A DNA stretch of 37,769 nucleotides from Candidatus Saccharimonadota bacterium (GTDB lineage Bacteria; Patescibacteriota; Saccharimonadia; Saccharimonadales; UBA4665), in the NCBI GenBank assembly GCA_027365445.1, contig DAHXNJ010000065.1, positions 1 to 37,769 of the forward strand, in the 5' to 3' direction. Position numbers and translations under genes: made by a program. Positions 2-26,169 of this stretch are shown piece after piece; position 1 is the first letter of the stretch; each line of letters opens with the position of its first letter. Below the pieces are notes generated by a model. The model worked only from the letters and a program-made list of their open reading frames with translations. It was not told where the DNA came from and did not search any database.

Positions 2-514
2 GTAGCAACAGTTCCTGCTTCAGTTACTACACCAAAATTAATCAACACTACACCTCCTACCGCTCCAGCATCGCTTAAAGTAGACATTGTCACCTCTACT
101 AGTGTAGATTTATCTTGGCAATCAAGTACCGATAGTGGAGCAACAGTAATTGGGTATAAGGTATACCGATCAGGGCAATATTTAACTACCGTTAAGTCAC
201 CTTCATTTACAGATAGTAATCTATCTCCAGATACCTCATATGTGTATACGGTCCAGGCACTTGCTAGTAACGGCACAACATCAAGTAATAGTAGTATTTC
301 GGTTAAGACCTTACCTAACCCTGTTAAAATTGTTGCTAGCTGTAGTTTAGATCTAAATCATGATGGCATAGTTGATGTATATGATGGATCAATCATGTTT
401 GCTCATTGGCATATACCTTCAGCAACTTGCGCTATGGGTGATTTTAATCATGATGGCATAGTTAATAGTCTAGATGCACAGATATTGTTTAGTCATTGGG
501 GTGAAAAAGTATGA
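2..514 (+). CDS. C-terminal part of a secreted/surface protein: fibronectin type III domain followed by a C-terminal dockerin type I-like domain (5' end outside window)
   Basis: Frame 2 is open from the window start to TGA at 512-514. FN3-like segment 'PASLKVDIVTSTSVDLSWQSSTDSG..VIGYKVYRSGQYLTTV..PDTSYVYTVQA'. Two dockerin Ca-binding-like repeats: 'DLNHDGIVDVYDGSIMFAHW' and 'DFNHDGIVNSLDAQILFSHWG'. Confidence 0.85.
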   Translation, partial: VATVPASVTTPKLINTTPPTAPASLKVDIVTSTSVDLSWQSSTDSGATVIGYKVYRSGQYLTTVKSPSFTDSNLSPDTSYVYTVQALASNGTTSSNSSISVKTLPNPVKIVASCSLDLNHDGIVDVYDGSIMFAHWHIPSATCAMGDFNHDGIVNSLDAQILFSHWGEKV

Positions 515-1848
515 TTAAAAATATTAAATATAATTGGCACATAGCTCGTTCTGTTGTGATCGTAGGGCTTATACTTATAATGCTAATCGCTTATCCTTTA
601 ATAACTAATAAGGAAGCTTCAGCCTCAACTCAAAGAGGCTCATTATACTTAACGTCATCAAATAGCAAGGCTTCTCTGGGAAATTTAGTGACTTTAACTG
701 TTTTTGAAAACAGTGAGCAGACACCAGTGAATGGAGTTCAGGTTAATTTAACTTATCCTTCGAATATACTTAGCTTCGTCTCGTATAATAGTAACGGCTT
801 GCCGTTTAATTACCCTGGCCCGACTCCAGCAACTACGCAGTCTAGCTTTAATTATGCAATTTTTAGTACTACTCCGCTTACTGGTAACAGAGCAGTCGTC
901 AATGTTGTTTTTAGGGTTGTTGGCTATGGAAGTGCTAATGTTAGTTTAGCTAATTCGATAGTTTCTAGTTCAAATGGTCTTAATATCGGAGATACACTAA
1001 ATGGTACCAATATTACTGTAGCTAAGCCGGTAATAGTTCCGCCAATTGTAGTTATAAAACCGACACACCCAGTTCATTCTGTTAAATCAACTCAAGTACC
1101 TTCTATAACTCAAGAATCTCAGCCATTACCAGCACCTCAAGCTCCTGCCAGAAAAGCAATGCCGGCCCCTGTTATCCATATATTCACTAAGCCTAGAGTT
1201 ACTTCTGTATCTTTCACTCCTCAGGGCAGTAGCCAGCCAGTTGTAGTATTGCCCCGCAATAACATAAAACTTATTGTACCGATTGTCGTTAGGCCAAATA
1301 TTGTTCAGCCAACTCATCAGTTTAGAAAAGTAACACCACCTGATCCAATAGTAAAAGTCGAGTATTTCTTAAATAATAAATTGGTTTCAGTGGTAACGAA
1401 AAGCCCTTATAAATATAAATTGCCGACAAATAATATCTTAAATGGAAACTATAATCTTACAATCAAAACATATAGAGCTGGAGGAGGTAGTTCTTCAACC
1501 CCAGAGCATTTAATAGTTGCTAATCCTTTTTCACTAAATCAAGTTCGTCTAGCGTCTCTACACTATAAATTTCAAGAATTGCTGACTTTAATTGTTATTG
1601 TATTGTTAATCGTCGCTTTCTACATGCGCAGCAGGGTGTCTAGTTTCTTAAACAAAAAACTTGTTAGTGAACCAGTAGTTATTAATGCTCCAAGGAAAGA
1701 CGATGACAATGTTAATAGATATGAAATGCAAACTCCACCATCAGGACCATCGCTAGACCAAAGATTGAATAACTTGCCTACACCTGTTCAGCCTCCTGGC
1801 TCAATTTATGGCCCTGATAATAATGAAGATGTAGATCATAGAAATTAA
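511..1848 (+). CDS. Membrane-anchored cohesin-domain protein with Pro-rich linker, bacterial Ig-like domain, C-terminal TM helix and cytoplasmic tail
   Basis: N-terminal hydrophobic segment. Cohesin-like beta pattern 'SKASLGNLVTLTVFENSEQTPVNGVQVNLTYPSNILSFVSY...AVVNVVFRVVGYGSANVSLANSIVSSSNG'. Ig-like 'IVKVEYFLNNKLVSVVTKSPYKYKLPTNNILNGNYNLTIKTY'. TM 'LLTLIVIVLLIVAFYM'. ATGA overlap with the upstream gene. Confidence 0.82.
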   Translation: MIKNIKYNWHIARSVVIVGLILIMLIAYPLITNKEASASTQRGSLYLTSSNSKASLGNLVTLTVFENSEQTPVNGVQVNLTYPSNILSFVSYNSNGLPFNYPGPTPATTQSSFNYAIFSTTPLTGNRAVVNVVFRVVGYGSANVSLANSIVSSSNGLNIGDTLNGTNITVAKPVIVPPIVVIKPTHPVHSVKSTQVPSITQESQPLPAPQAPARKAMPAPVIHIFTKPRVTSVSFTPQGSSQPVVVLPRNNIKLIVPIVVRPNIVQPTHQFRKVTPPDPIVKVEYFLNNKLVSVVTKSPYKYKLPTNNILNGNYNLTIKTYRAGGGSSSTPEHLIVANPFSLNQVRLASLHYKFQELLTLIVIVLLIVAFYMRSRVSSFLNKKLVSEPVVINAPRKDDDNVNRYEMQTPPSGPSLDQRLNNLPTPVQPPGSIYGPDNNEDVDHRN

Positions 1849-1862
1849 GGGTCTTTAAAAAA

Positions 1863-2489
1863 GTGTTAACTAACACAAGAGCTGATATCTTAAAGAAATT
1901 GAGATATTTTGCGACCCCGAGTTGGTTAAGCGGAATAATCGCTGTACTGTTACCGCTAATGACGATAATAGATTCAGGAATAACTGCTCATTTTAAACAG
2001 GTTTATGTTTACCCAGTTGGTTTCTTAATTAATCATGATACAACTGGTATATTCAATAAATACAATTTAATTGTTAAGCATCTGTCACATAATCAGATAT
2101 TGAATTCCTTGTATCTTTATCTTTTTTGGATAATCGTTGGCATAATTGTTTATTTTTTAACCAACAAAGTTGTCAGCTATTTTAAGCATGCAGTAGCAAT
2201 TGAAAAAGAGCTTTTTTATATGAATACTAACCGTAAAACTCTTCTCGGTAGTGTACTTAGAATCTTTGAAATCAGAATCATTGCTTTAATTATTATTTGG
2301 ATATTAGCTGCTATATCTCTTCATGATATTGTTCCGTATCTTTTTAGAGATGGACAAAATATATTTAAAACTTTAAATGTGATGAATGCTATAAATTTAT
2401 TACTTTATTTTTTATTACAAGTATTAGTTATTTTTGCAATAGACATGGCTTTTAGACTATTTTTTTTGAAACCGAGGTTATTTAGATAA
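1863..2489 (+). CDS. Multi-spanning membrane protein of unknown function
   Basis: GTG-start ORF, 14 nt after the cohesin gene; several hydrophobic stretches. Confidence 0.7.
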   Translation: MLTNTRADILKKLRYFATPSWLSGIIAVLLPLMTIIDSGITAHFKQVYVYPVGFLINHDTTGIFNKYNLIVKHLSHNQILNSLYLYLFWIIVGIIVYFLTNKVVSYFKHAVAIEKELFYMNTNRKTLLGSVLRIFEIRIIALIIIWILAAISLHDIVPYLFRDGQNIFKTLNVMNAINLLLYFLLQVLVIFAIDMAFRLFFLKPRLFR

Positions 2490-2506: not shown

Positions 2507-2537
2507 ATCCTATCATATTGGTGATAGGATATTTTTA
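2507..2537 (+). terminator. Rho-independent terminator
   Basis: 9-bp perfect stem ATCCTATCA/TGATAGGAT, 6-nt loop, followed by ATTTTTA, just after the stop of the 1863-2489 gene. Confidence 0.7.
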
Positions 2538-2647
2538 GCTAATTTCTATCAATATGAAGCTTTAGTATGTCGATTATGGATTAAGTATATTATCGTAAAT
2601 TAAGCATAAGAAACTTCTTGCTTTTGTTTTATTGGCGGACTACTCTT

Positions 2648-3922
2648 ATGAATAGAATGATCGCAATAGAAAAAGCAAAAGTATATGTTGGAGAATCGAT
2701 CCACCGTAAAAAGTACAATTTAATGCCTTCAGATGTATCGGCCGCTAGGGCATATATTAAGGAGTATTGGACTCATTTAATTAGAAATCATCCGGATGAT
2801 GAGGGTAGCTTAATTGGAGTTCCGTATCCGTATTTAGTTCCTTCTTATGCTGAAGGTCATGAATTTGATTATGATGAACTTTATTATTGGGATAGCTATT
2901 TTATGGCTCAAGGACTGTGGGATGAAGAACATAAAGATTTAATATTGGGCATCATTGAAGATCTAGTTTATCTATTTAATAGATTTAAAATTATACCTAA
3001 TTCTTCTCAATTCTATATGACTGGTAGATCGCAACCACCATTCTTAACATCTTTTATCTTAGAAGCTGAAGCTAATTATAAAATGGATATGAATTGGTTA
3101 AATCAGAAAATAGAAGTTGCTAAAGCTGAATATGAAGTTGTTTGGATGGGTCTTCGAAAACCAAATGCCCGACAGGTATATAGAGGCCTTAGTCGCTATT
3201 ATGACTATAATTATCTTAATGATATAGCTGAAACTGAAAGTGGATGGGACATGACACCTAGATTTAACCGTAAAGCCCTAAACTATTTACCGGTTGATCT
3301 CAATGCTTTGTTATTTAAATATGAGGCTGATTTTGCTAGTGTGGCTCGGCGAAACGATGATAAAGAAGAAGCAGATAAGTGGGATAAGGCGGCTGAGGCC
3401 CGTAAGCAAACTATGAATGAATTAATGTGGGACAAGTTTCGAGGCATGTATTTTGACTATGACTTTACTAGGCAAAAAAGGGGAAATGTTTCTAGTTTAG
3501 CCTCTTACTTTCCGATGTGGGCCGGAATGGTTAGCGAGGAACAGGCGGGGGCACTAGTCAAATCAATAAAAAAATTCGATAACAAGGGTGGGTTAGCTAC
3601 AACTGATTTTTCTCCTTTATCTCAATTTGTTTCTGGATCAATTCCTACTCAATGGGCTTATCCTAATGGCTGGGCACCACTTCAATTTATAACGGTTCAG
3701 GCTTTGAATAGATATGGTTATCATAAAGAGGCAAAGACAATAGCTACAAAATGGCTACGAGGTAATTTAGAATGGTTTAATGGCCATAATGTCTTTTTAG
3801 AAAAGTATAATGTTGTATCGCCGGAAAAACCTCCAATAAAAGGTCTATATCCTTCTCAGGTTGGTTTTGGATGGACTAATTCTATCTTTGAACGTTTTTG
3901 CAAAGACTATGTCGATATTTAA
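2648..3922 (+). CDS. GH37 trehalase-family glycoside hydrolase (predicted cytoplasmic)
   Basis: GH37 motifs: 'DELYYWDSYFMAQGL', 'ESGWDMTPRF' (catalytic Asp region), 'QWAYPNGWAP', 'EKYNV...GFGWTN'. ATG at 2648 chosen over the upstream TTG; no signal peptide evident. Confidence 0.88.
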   Translation: MNRMIAIEKAKVYVGESIHRKKYNLMPSDVSAARAYIKEYWTHLIRNHPDDEGSLIGVPYPYLVPSYAEGHEFDYDELYYWDSYFMAQGLWDEEHKDLILGIIEDLVYLFNRFKIIPNSSQFYMTGRSQPPFLTSFILEAEANYKMDMNWLNQKIEVAKAEYEVVWMGLRKPNARQVYRGLSRYYDYNYLNDIAETESGWDMTPRFNRKALNYLPVDLNALLFKYEADFASVARRNDDKEEADKWDKAAEARKQTMNELMWDKFRGMYFDYDFTRQKRGNVSSLASYFPMWAGMVSEEQAGALVKSIKKFDNKGGLATTDFSPLSQFVSGSIPTQWAYPNGWAPLQFITVQALNRYGYHKEAKTIATKWLRGNLEWFNGHNVFLEKYNVVSPEKPPIKGLYPSQVGFGWTNSIFERFCKDYVDI

Positions 3923-5149: not shown

Positions 5150-6592
5150 ATGAGCAAATATTACGTAACAACATCTATTCCCTATGTAAATGCCGGACCG
5201 CATATTGGGTTTGCCATGGAACTACTTTATGCTGATGTTTTAGCCAGAGCTGCTAGAGCAAGGGGTGATGAAGTTATTTTTTCAACTGGTACCGATGAAC
5301 ATGGAGGAAAGATAGCCGAAAAAGCCAAGGAACAAGGTAAGACTGTAAAAGAATATACGGATGAGATATCTGCTAGTTTTGCTAAATTAACAAATGTTAT
5401 TGAAGTTAGCAATAACCGTTTTATTAGGACGACAGATAAGGGTCATGAACAACGAGCCACTGAAATATGGAAAAGGTTAAAAAAAGATATATATAAGAAT
5501 AGTTATGTCGGTTGGTACTGCGTTGGTGATGAGGCTTTTTTTACCGAAAAGGAAGTAAAAGCGAACAATGGGGTATGTCCTGCCCATAATCGTCCTTATG
5601 AGAAGATTGAAGAAGAAAATTACTTTTTTAGGCTTAGTAAATACAATGATGTGATTAAAGAACAGATTGTCTCTAATCGGTTTATGATCTTACCAGAGAC
5701 TAGAAAAAATGAGATACTTTCTGTCATTAATCAGGGACTTGAGGACATATCGATTAGTCGACCGAAAGATAAGATCGATTGGGGTATACCTGTACCCGGT
5801 GACTCGACACAGGTAATGTACGTTTGGTTTGAGGCTTTAATGAATTACATCACTGTTCTTGGATATCCAGAACACGAAGATTTTAAAAACTATTGGCCAG
5901 CTAATGTTCAAGTAATAGGCAAGGATATTATTCGTTTTCATGCAGCCATTTGGCCAGCAATACTTCTATCTTTAGGCTTGCCCTTGCCTAAACAGTTATA
6001 TGTACATGGCTTTGTTACTGCCGATGGACAGAAAATGAGTAAATCACTAGGAAATGTAATTGATCCATTTCAGGTAGTAGAAGATTACGGCGTTGATGCT
6101 TTTAGATATTTTATGCTTAGGCACATACCTAGTTATGGTGATGGTGACTTTACTTGGCAAAGATTCCATGATGCATACAATAACGAGTTGGCTAATGAAT
6201 TAGGCAATTTGGTTCAGCGGATTATTGCTATGAGTGTTAAGTATCTAAAAGGCGATGTAAGTAATATTCCTCCTGCTGAACATGATATTTCGTCATATAC
6301 TGAGGCGCTTAATAATTGTCGTTTTGATCAGGCAATTGAAGAGGCGTGGGCTCAAGTGCGGAGCTTAAATCAATATATTGATGAAGAAAAGCCTTGGGTT
6401 ATAGCGAAAAGTGGAGATGTCGACCATATAAACGAGATAATGGGATACTTACTTAGTAGCTTAAATGAGATTGCTGAGCTACTGTTTCCATTTATACCGA
6501 CTAGTTGCAATAAGATTAAGCAAGCAATTAATCAAGAGCGGATAACTATTAATGACCAAACACTGTTTCCTAAGCACGAACTAAACGCATGA
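5150..6592 (+). CDS. metG: Methionyl-tRNA synthetase
   Basis: 'PYVNAGPHIGFA' (HIGH), 'GQKMSKSLGNV' (KMSKS), 'STGTDEHGGKI', 'YVWFEALMNY'. Confidence 0.96.
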   Translation: MSKYYVTTSIPYVNAGPHIGFAMELLYADVLARAARARGDEVIFSTGTDEHGGKIAEKAKEQGKTVKEYTDEISASFAKLTNVIEVSNNRFIRTTDKGHEQRATEIWKRLKKDIYKNSYVGWYCVGDEAFFTEKEVKANNGVCPAHNRPYEKIEEENYFFRLSKYNDVIKEQIVSNRFMILPETRKNEILSVINQGLEDISISRPKDKIDWGIPVPGDSTQVMYVWFEALMNYITVLGYPEHEDFKNYWPANVQVIGKDIIRFHAAIWPAILLSLGLPLPKQLYVHGFVTADGQKMSKSLGNVIDPFQVVEDYGVDAFRYFMLRHIPSYGDGDFTWQRFHDAYNNELANELGNLVQRIIAMSVKYLKGDVSNIPPAEHDISSYTEALNNCRFDQAIEEAWAQVRSLNQYIDEEKPWVIAKSGDVDHINEIMGYLLSSLNEIAELLFPFIPTSCNKIKQAINQERITINDQTLFPKHELNA

Positions 6593-20419: not shown

Positions 20420-22153
20420 ATGGCAGATAATAGCAAAGATACTATTTACGTAGATATAGATGATGAAATAACTACTCTTATTGATAAGGTTAGAACTTCT
20501 AACTCTCGTCTTGTTGCTTTAGTGCTGCCTAAAAGAGCAAGTGTATTGCAGTCTATTGTTAACATGAAGTTATTAAAACGTACTGCTGATTCAGAAAAAA
20601 AGAACATCGTTCTCATTACTACAGAGAATGGCTTACTTCCATTGGCTGGAGCCGTAGGCTTACATACAGCTGCTACTCTAACCTCTAAACCGGAAATACC
20701 TAAAGGTCCAGTGTTGGCTGCTGCCGGTCAAGAAACGGTCGATGAAGACATGGATTTACAGTTAGATGACGAAGAAGCTCCTGATTTAGCCAAAAAAGCT
20801 GGTTTAGCTGCTAGTGTGGGTGATTTAGCTGCCTCCGTCGAAAAACCGGTTAATTCCTTAAATGCAGTAGATAATCTAGAAACGGTCGATATGGCCGATG
20901 CTGAGTTAGCGCCTAGCGATGAAGAAGATCAACCTCCAGAAGACGTTAAGCCCAAAAAAGATAAACACCTAAAAGTGCCTAATTTTGATCGTTTTCGGAC
21001 TTTGCTTATTCTAGGAGTTTTGTTAATTCTTTTCTTAGGCATTCTTGGTTATTTTGTACTGGCTGTTTGGCCACATGCTACGATAGAAATCAAGACTGAC
21101 GCCAGTAACGTTAATACTAATGTTAGCGTGACGCTGGATACTGGAGCACAGACTGCTAGCATATCTACTGGAGATATACCTGCAACTCAGGTATCTCAGC
21201 AAAAGACTTATACACAAACCGTGAATACGACAGGTCAGAAAAATGAAGGAACGGCCGCTACTGGGTCAGTTACTATGACCGCTAGTGACTGTACTTCACC
21301 CTATACTTATAACGGAGCTTTTACGATCCCAGCAGGAACAGGAATAAGCTATAACAACCTTACCTATGTTACACAGAATGATACCCAGATGATGATACCC
21401 CAACACTACCCTTTTAAGGGCAGCTGTGTAAGCTACGTCGCCGCTAACTCAACACAAATAACGGCACAAAGCGGAGGATCATCATATAATGCTCAGATTA
21501 ACAACGGTACGGTTTCTGGATACCCTGAGGTAGTTGCTAACGGTTCGGCTAGTGGTGGTACAGATAATATAATTCAAATCGTAGCTCAAGCTGATATAAG
21601 TACTGCTACTTCTAAGATAAATACCAATGCTGGTAGTGTAAAACAGAGTTTAATTAATCAGCTTAAAGGCCAGGGGTTATATCCAGTTGATGTTACTTTT
21701 GCTAGTAGTACTCCACAGATTAGTGCTAATCCTAGTGTTGGTTCACCTTCAAATACGGTTACGGTAACAGAAACTGTGACCTATACTATGTTTGGTGCAA
21801 GTAAATCTAACCTTAATGCTTTACTGGATTCAAATATTAAGAGTCAGACTAGTAAAGGTCAAAATATTATTAGTAATGGCTTAAGTCAAAGCTCATTTAG
21901 ACAGGTTAGTGCTAATAGCTCTACTGATCAAGTATCTTTAAACACCTTTGCTGAGGTAGGTCCAAACATTTCCGTAGCAGGTATTAAGAAAGAGTCTTCT
22001 GGTCAATCACCAAAGATGATTATCTCAAAGATTAGAACTAATCCTGATGTAACCGGAGTGATTGTTAAACTAAATCCGTTTTATGTAACAACTGCTCCAA
22101 CTAACCAATCTAAAATAACTGTCAAAATTGCTAAGCCTACTAAGACGGCTTGA
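20420..22153 (+). CDS. Single-pass membrane protein with cytoplasmic N-domain and large extracellular region (baseplate-J-like character)
   Basis: Cytoplasmic 'DSRLVALVLPKRASVLQSI'-type domain, acidic linker, TM 'LLILGVLLILFLGILGYFVLAVW', then a Ser/Thr/Asn-rich beta-type region; 2 nt after the FtsA-like gene. Confidence 0.7.
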   Translation: MADNSKDTIYVDIDDEITTLIDKVRTSNSRLVALVLPKRASVLQSIVNMKLLKRTADSEKKNIVLITTENGLLPLAGAVGLHTAATLTSKPEIPKGPVLAAAGQETVDEDMDLQLDDEEAPDLAKKAGLAASVGDLAASVEKPVNSLNAVDNLETVDMADAELAPSDEEDQPPEDVKPKKDKHLKVPNFDRFRTLLILGVLLILFLGILGYFVLAVWPHATIEIKTDASNVNTNVSVTLDTGAQTASISTGDIPATQVSQQKTYTQTVNTTGQKNEGTAATGSVTMTASDCTSPYTYNGAFTIPAGTGISYNNLTYVTQNDTQMMIPQHYPFKGSCVSYVAANSTQITAQSGGSSYNAQINNGTVSGYPEVVANGSASGGTDNIIQIVAQADISTATSKINTNAGSVKQSLINQLKGQGLYPVDVTFASSTPQISANPSVGSPSNTVTVTETVTYTMFGASKSNLNALLDSNIKSQTSKGQNIISNGLSQSSFRQVSANSSTDQVSLNTFAEVGPNISVAGIKKESSGQSPKMIISKIRTNPDVTGVIVKLNPFYVTTAPTNQSKITVKIAKPTKTA

Positions 22154-25071: not shown

Positions 25072-26169
25072 ATTAATAAAGCTATTTCACACAGTTTGGA
25101 ATTAGGTACTGCGGTACCACTTAAACAAACTAGGTCTTATAAAAAGTCATTTTATCGACGCTTTACCCATCGTCGTGTTCTTAAATATTCTTTACTTAGT
25201 GGCAATATACTACTTTTGCTAGCAGTTGTATTCTTTGTTGTTTCGGCGACTGGTAATAGTGCCACCACTAGCGTTGCACCATCTATAGGTAACGTTATTA
25301 ACCCTCTCGATCAGCTATCTTCAGCTTCTATTGCCTTAACAGTAGCTCGATTAGCTAATTTACCTGAAACTACTGCGGTAATGAATCAAGCTGATACTGA
25401 GCAGACACTTTTAGCTGTCGCACCAACCAATAATAGTGTTATTAGTAAACCTCAAGTAGTTGCTACTAAATATATTTCTAATAAAGATATTAAAACATAT
25501 GTAGTAGCTCGTGGCGATACGGTTTCTTCGATTGCTAAGAAGTTTAATATTTCTATAAATAGTATTCTCTGGTCTAATAATATTACTGGCAATGCGATAA
25601 CGCCTGGGGTTAAATTACTTATACCGCCTGTAAGCGGAATAGTCTATACGGTTAAAGCTGGCGATACTCCAGCTTCGCTCGCAACAAAGTTCCAGGCAAG
25701 CAAAAGTCTTATTATTTCTTATAATGACGCAGAATTAAAAGGTATCTATACTGGTGAACGAATAATTATTCCTAACGGCACTGAACCAAGCGTAAGCAAT
25801 TATTATGCAAGCAATAGTGCTACTTATGGCTGGGGAGCTCAAGCATATTACGGTTATAATGGCTATGATTTTGGTGAATGTACCTGGTGGGTAGCAAAAT
25901 TAAGAGCACAAGCTGGTGCTCCATTGCCTACTGATCTTGGCAACGCCGCAACATGGGGTATTAGAGCTGCAGCGTTTGGTCTGCCAGTAGGTACGACGCC
26001 ATCTGTTGGAGCGGCAGTAGTAATGTCTACTATTGGCTATGGACACGTTGCTTATGTTACTGCGGTCCATCCTAATGGTACGATCACAATTAGCGAGATG
26101 AATCGTGTTGGTTGGGATATGGTTGATACAAGAGTAGTACCAAGTGCCGGCTACACATATATCTATTGA
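25072..26169 (+). CDS. LysM (two) + CHAP domain peptidoglycan hydrolase
   Basis: LysM 'YVVARGDTVSSIAKKFNISINSILWSNNI' and 'YTVKAGDTPASLATKFQ'; CHAP 'YDFGECTWWVAKLRAQAG..GHVAYVTAV'. ORF track starts at TTG 25096; an in-frame ATT at 25072 has better SD spacing. Confidence 0.88.
   Translation: MNKAISHSLELGTAVPLKQTRSYKKSFYRRFTHRRVLKYSLLSGNILLLLAVVFFVVSATGNSATTSVAPSIGNVINPLDQLSSASIALTVARLANLPETTAVMNQADTEQTLLAVAPTNNSVISKPQVVATKYISNKDIKTYVVARGDTVSSIAKKFNISINSILWSNNITGNAITPGVKLLIPPVSGIVYTVKAGDTPASLATKFQASKSLIISYNDAELKGIYTGERIIIPNGTEPSVSNYYASNSATYGWGAQAYYGYNGYDFGECTWWVAKLRAQAGAPLPTDLGNAATWGIRAAAFGLPVGTTPSVGAAVVMSTIGYGHVAYVTAVHPNGTITISEMNRVGWDMVDTRVVPSAGYTYIY

Follow-up and report, generated by a model that had tools for sequence, protein, structure and literature searches.

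An adjacent dockerin protein and membrane-anchored cohesin in a Saccharibacteria genome, a likely two-component surface display unit

INTRODUCTION

Cohesins and dockerins bind each other in a calcium-dependent manner, which is a trait of the family. In clostridial cellulosomes, anchoring is typically via SLH or sortase. Non-cellulosomal modules were reportedly treated by Peer et al. in 2009.

Closer to the DNA studied here, Starr et al. 2018 described a two-subunit cellulosome in Ca. T. rhizospherense, a member of the Saccharibacteria, and read it as serving cellulose degradation (PMC6031116), so a cohesin/dockerin pair in this group has been known since 2018 and is not unprecedented. Cohesin and dockerin genes were found to be expressed in a Microgenomates bacterium in a 2022 study (PMC9123182), and in S. 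epibionticum, the dockerin protein SEML1_0315 proved essential in the Tn-seq of Wang et al. 2023, who proposed that it targets glycans (PMC10633639). SEML1_0315 is, like the protein reported below, a dockerin envelope protein of a Saccharibacterium, whereas no cohesin is mentioned in the main text of Wang et al. (PMC10633639). In the open-access literature on dockerins and cellulosomes in Saccharibacteria and Patescibacteria, no account was found of a general pair, of its anchors, or of cargo swapping.

In the genome of Ca. T. rhizospherense (G022), one dockerin gene (L091:3992-5419) is followed by one cohesin gene (5422-6348) with a C-terminal transmembrane (TM) helix, which is likely the two-subunit cellulosome meant by Starr et al. 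The dockerin protein consists of CBM_4_9 and a polysaccharide deacetylase, with no recognisable cellulase. The locus reported here comes from the same bacterial family and has the same two-gene arrangement, a dockerin gene directly before a TM-anchored cohesin gene, but its cargo differs, being FN3 with the rest absent.

RESULTS AND DISCUSSION

General features of the locus

The window, the whole stretch of DNA analysed, is an entire contig of 37,769 bases (C1 of assembly G000), and the genome of 834,540 bases in 67 contigs is 83.6% complete. The following features were recognised at its 5' end.

2..514, + strand: dockerin-bearing cargo gene, 170 aa visible, 5' end absent at the contig edge
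62..292, + strand: fibronectin type III (FN3) domain (Pfam fn3, E 4e-11)
350..487, + strand: type I dockerin of two repeats (Pfam Dockerin_1)
350..385, + strand: Ca-binding loop 1, DLNHDGIVDVYD (from the sequence; fits the consensus of about 160 repeats)
440..475, + strand: Ca-binding loop 2, DFNHDGIVNSLD (from the sequence; fits the same consensus of about 160 repeats)
511..514, + strand: ATGA stop/start overlap
511..1848, + strand: membrane-anchored cohesin gene, 445 aa (Pfam, family profile, AF2, Foldseek)
511..627, + strand: signal/hydrophobic N-terminus ending in ASAS (sequence; AF2 helix 3-32)
631..1035, + strand: cohesin domain, aa 41-175 (family profile and fold match; below the Pfam cut-off)
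1036..1230, + strand: Pro-rich linker (sequence; low pLDDT)
1342..1464, + strand: Big_7 bacterial Ig domain, with modelled strands to about 1518 (26.6 bits, cut-off 24.1; AF2)
1570..1626, + strand: C-terminal TM helix (hydropathy 2.39 at aa 354-372; AF2 helix 342-382)
1627..1845, + strand: C-terminal tail, presumed cytoplasmic (sequence; mostly disordered in the AF2 model)
1863..2489, + strand: probably the operon's third gene, for a small membrane protein (separated by 14 bases; homologue at L106:601-1233, close to the G009 pair, phmmer 1.8e-15)
2507..2530, + strand: terminator-like hairpin, possibly the end of the unit (10-pair stem and T run; consensus match only)

The first open reading frame (ORF) begins upstream of the contig start, so its N-terminal cargo is incomplete and a single FN3 domain is readable; the absent 5' piece was searched for across the rest of the genome, and none was found. 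The dockerin forms the extreme C-terminus of the product, after FN3, and its Pfam score of 26.8 bits for PF00404 exceeds the cut-off of 22.9. Both of its Ca loops are canonical, with a complete set of ligands (D1-N3-D5-D12), and no anchor is visible in the readable part of the protein. Pfam thus agrees with the initial annotation, made from the sequence alone, that an FN3 protein ends here in two dockerin repeats. The overlap of its TGA with the ATG of the next gene was also correctly placed by that annotation, and all the parts that it had listed for the downstream product, a cohesin, a Pro-rich linker, an Ig-like domain, and a C-terminal TM helix, are present. TM calls were based solely on hydropathy and the AF2 helix.

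The ORF at 1863-2489 was considered as a fixed third component of the system and rejected, as its family occurs in 26 of 100 genomes, usually distant from the pair. A member of this family lies directly 3' of a different dockerin gene in G043 (G043:C6:230222-230797). Promoter-like sites were no commoner in the window than expected by chance, and a search for a plasmid match found none. Elsewhere in the window, a 434-aa trehalase-family protein (2618-3922) lacks homologues among the ORFs at the related pair loci compared, a LysM and CHAP protein (25096-26169) is likely a peptidoglycan hydrolase, and a 577-aa ORF (20420-22153) following an FtsA-like gene has no Pfam match at 1e-6.

Identification of the cohesin domain

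The domain at aa 41-175 of the 511-1848 product scored below the Pfam gathering threshold for Cohesin (PF00963), the whole protein reaching 12.9 bits and the domain 16.8 bits (E 0.008) against a cut-off of 24.1. With the anchor protein as a single sequence, a search of the PDB matched no cohesin, and a contig scan of the genomes with the whole protein as the query gave no matches. Iterated searches seeded with the cohesin domain gathered 50 non-redundant domains from related genomes; the diversity within a 32-row alignment was too great for search patterns to be drawn from it. For 43 of the 46 aligned relatives, the E value against Pfam Cohesin was 0.01 or lower, 1.3e-14 being the best, and when the profile built from these 46 relatives (A1) was compared with all PDB sequences, cohesins ranked on top (3l8q, 3.7e-10; 2vn5, 1.9e-9) with nothing better. 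The AF2 model of the protein has a pLDDT of about 90 to 98 over the domain, and Foldseek matched it to PDB cohesins with TM scores of 0.71 to 0.74, the fold being the all-beta jelly roll of cohesins. Because the family profile matches PDB cohesins and the modelled fold matches cohesins, we regard the identity of the domain as established. A Pfam search by itself would have missed the cohesin that the initial annotation had proposed, and the family profile and fold match bore it out.

Distribution and gene order in related genomes

Among 100 related genomes, a cohesin was found in 27, a dockerin in 27, and both in 23 (Fisher p 1e-14), and among 380 genomes across the phylum, the corresponding numbers were 111, 149, and 75 (odds ratio 5.5, p 6e-13). 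Addition of the window genome and of G027, a genome found with the window protein and missed by Pfam, gave 25 genomes with both. The two genes lie within 5 kb of each other in 24 of these 25, about 1.3 being expected by random placement, and in all 25 if G009 is counted, the dockerin of which was recognised by homology to that of the window. Conservation of the pair in relatives, which had been suggested as a check on the original proposal, is therefore nearly complete among these genomes with both parts. In the genomes with a single dockerin and a single cohesin, the two genes are neighbours in 14 of 14.

The dockerin gene precedes the cohesin gene, within 600 bases, in 17 genomes, the order is reversed at L210-L212, and the genes are convergent at L187-L189, L213, and L214; since all three arrangements are found, the pairing is not merely one inherited operon. 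The genes overlap by 4 bases in G043 and G057, as in the window, and by 7 bases in G009, while for the remaining pairs measured, the spacing lies between a longer overlap and a gap of 31 bases. In the genus of the window, either part occurs in only 2 of 19 genomes (G000 and G009), each of which has both. In G009, four cohesin matches were found, and a frame resembling a cohesin but interrupted by a single TGA (G009:C3:29770-30192, L222) is possibly a decaying extra copy. In another family of Saccharimonadales (G435, L149/L218; G403, L140/L216; G292, L219), no cohesin was detected by Pfam; a tailored profile located one adjoining the dockerin gene in G435 and one about 2.4 kb off in G403.

Anchors and tiers

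Anchors are divided unevenly between the two kinds of protein. When complete, non-redundant proteins were counted and TM segments were called by hydropathy, a C-terminal TM candidate was present in 42 of the 49 cohesin-only proteins versus 1 of the 34 dockerin-only proteins (p 6e-15). An N-terminal hydrophobic segment was found in 30 of the 34 dockerin-only proteins, and the one further TM candidate in this set was weak; further candidates in cohesin-only proteins were nearly always C-terminal. In total, 10 proteins carry both cohesin and dockerin domains. At L170, L171 (Ca. Woykebacteria), and L180, dockerin proteins, a cohesin-dockerin adaptor, and a TM-anchored cohesin protein lie in a row and make up three tiers, resembling the adaptor and anchoring scaffoldins of clostridia. 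Multi-cohesin versions occur in G043, G073, and G085. In distant Patescibacteria (L204 in G165 and L205-L207 in G191), arrays of dockerin genes accompany a two-cohesin scaffold protein, and the dockerin gene examined in these arrays is GH5/apiosidase-like.

Does the dockerin bind its neighbour?

The assembly contains one dockerin and one cohesin, adjacent to each other, and the scan for further dockerin proteins that had been proposed at the outset found none; further partners may be absent from the assembly because the genome is 83.6% complete. Distances among dockerin domains correlate with those among the neighbouring cohesin domains (r 0.55 over 26 pairs, and r 0.68 with p 2e-4 when one pair per genus was taken in the family of the window), both values being taken before any correction for species phylogeny. 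Because the two domains are the sole copies in the assembly, their adjacency is conserved, and their divergence is correlated, the window dockerin and cohesin are probably partners.

An unlikely alternative is that there is no binding between the two, the dockerin being a Ca-stabilised tail and the cohesin binding some other target, such as a protein of a partner cell. It would accord with an AF2 co-fold of the in-frame dockerin and cohesin of G047 (P0003, with a single stop read through), which gave no confident docked pose and is not taken as support for docking: both domains are confident in themselves (pLDDT 90.6), and the pTM of 0.64 is about the value of two unplaced domains, the signal helix having been kept as the linker and the sequences being mostly unpaired. 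It would also accord with the genomes that carry a cohesin or a dockerin alone according to Pfam, but Pfam misses divergent cohesins beside dockerins, as the tailored profile revealed in G435. Adjacency in nearly all relatives with both parts, the split into anchored and anchorless proteins, and the correlated divergence argue against it.

We consider it likely that the pair is a two-component surface display unit, in which a secreted cargo docks on the anchored cohesin of its neighbour. The upstream protein would be secreted with its cargo at the N-terminus, its dockerin at the C-terminus, and no anchor of its own, and the downstream protein, once exported, would stay in the membrane through its C-terminal TM helix. 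Its one cohesin would face outward on a stalk formed by the Pro-rich and Ig regions. The start codon of the cohesin gene overlaps the upstream stop, which may couple translation of the two proteins. The dockerin would then bind the adjacent cohesin, presumably in the Ca-dependent manner of the family, and the cargo would thereby be fixed noncovalently at the cell surface. The initial annotation had the dockerin docking on its neighbour. Domains, fold, and adjacency uphold that this Saccharibacteria genome encodes a dockerin and a cohesin side by side, with the cohesin anchored and the dockerin protein lacking a visible anchor. The two are probable partners, and the docking itself is proposed.

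Cargo of the dockerin proteins

The sole other pair in the genus, in G009, has the adhesin-like arrangement Big_7-FN3x3-dockerin, and cargo of Big_7 and FN3 only is also found in G032, G048, G056, and G034. Other cargo includes subtilases (G091, G057, and G053), M10/M11 metalloproteases (L180 and L171), polysaccharide deacetylases (G022, G096, and G435), a peptidoglycan amidase with four PG_binding_1 domains (G085), GH16 (G057 and G073), and CBM6 (L191). G057 additionally has a ricin-type lectin with BSP peptidase, glucuronyl esterase, metallophosphoesterase, and CAP. Judged by sequence, the docking part is constant and the cargo exchangeable across relatives. At the locus L100:978-6457 of G085, one gene encodes an N-acetylmuramoyl-L-alanine amidase with four peptidoglycan-binding repeats, PA14, and a dockerin, and it directly precedes a gene for a two-cohesin TM-anchored protein, a layout suggestive of a surface-held wall hydrolase. 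The 1.1-Mb genome of G057 (Saccharimonadia DFJ.1; L195-L203, L101/L183) has about ten scattered dockerin proteins and few cohesins, a multi-cargo system.

Since FN3 is the visible cargo in the window, binding of a host or surface ligand would be a plausible role and the likeliest one, the cargo being incomplete. A narrower form of the display reading, in which the unit serves adhesion only and the anchor carries a docked FN3/Big_7 fibre that attaches to the host cell, stands at about even chances. The G009 pair and the other FN3/Big_7-only cargo speak for it, as does the essential dockerin protein of the epibiont S. epibionticum (PMC10633639). However, the window cargo is truncated at the 5' end and there is no known host, and at L171, L180, and L213, FN3 and Big_7 are spacers between enzymes and dockerins. 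The original suggestion of adhesion rather than cellulose degradation is thus strengthened by the adhesin-like pair of G009 and weakened by the incomplete window cargo and by the enzymes in the same slot in relatives. Because proteases, deacetylases, an amidase, and GH16 occupy this slot, the module is better termed cargo-neutral surface display.

Comparison with cellulosomes

Like the clostridial cellulosomes of C. thermocellum, A. cellulolyticus, and R. flavefaciens, the pair has a type I dockerin with a duplicated Ca loop, the cohesin fold, and a surface-anchoring cohesin, and adaptor cohesin-dockerin proteins are shared as well, here at L170, L171, and L180. Unlike them, it has a single cohesin, a scaffold without a carbohydrate-binding module (CBM), a TM helix as the anchor, and hydrophobic positions 10/11 in the dockerin loop, and the cargo is mostly non-cellulolytic. 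Cohesins of Archaeoglobus fulgidus (2xdh, TM score 0.73 against the window model) and of Clostridium perfringens GH84C (2jh2, TM score 0.74; also 2w1n) likewise have the cohesin fold outside cellulose degraders; the window differs from these in that its cohesin is TM-anchored, belongs to a conserved and probable display unit of two genes, and comes from an ultra-small bacterium.

Of the features that define a cellulosome, a multi-cohesin scaffoldin is missing, with one cohesin in the whole assembly; in place of several dockerin-bearing plant cell wall enzymes there is one dockerin protein lacking its N-terminus in the 83.6% complete assembly; and no CBM was found on the scaffold, for which Pfam gives Big_7 and a weak Cohesin only. 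By these features, as read from the sequence, the window pair is not a cellulosome, though in its mode of working it is probably similar to a minimal one. A true minimal cellulosome, with a complex that would bind plant or microbial polysaccharide and break it down in line with the proposal for Ca. T. rhizospherense, is unlikely. That reading draws on the published interpretation of the Ca. T. rhizospherense pair (PMC6031116) and on the GH16, CBM6, polysaccharide deacetylase, or GH5/apiosidase-like cargo of some relatives, but the visible window cargo is FN3 only, the one dockerin of the assembly faces a single cohesin with neither a CBM nor a scaffoldin array, and even the dockerin protein of Ca. 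T. rhizospherense has no cellulase domain.

Implications

The window pair is one case of a widespread pattern, a TM-anchored cohesin/dockerin assembly, usually with one cohesin and with mostly non-cellulolytic cargo. We tentatively propose, as a possibility somewhat short of probable, that in Saccharibacteria and other Patescibacteria a general cargo-neutral cohesin/dockerin display, with tiered versions, is a main route by which adhesins, proteases, and wall-active enzymes are fixed for attachment to and attack on hosts or neighbours, and not for cellulose use. Because much of the cargo is non-cellulolytic, the published "cellulosomes" of the group may have been misread. In addition, Pfam under-detects these cohesins, which calls for caution. 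For the question of how ultra-small, host-dependent Saccharibacteria hold on to and exploit their hosts, the plug-and-socket unit is a concrete, testable candidate.
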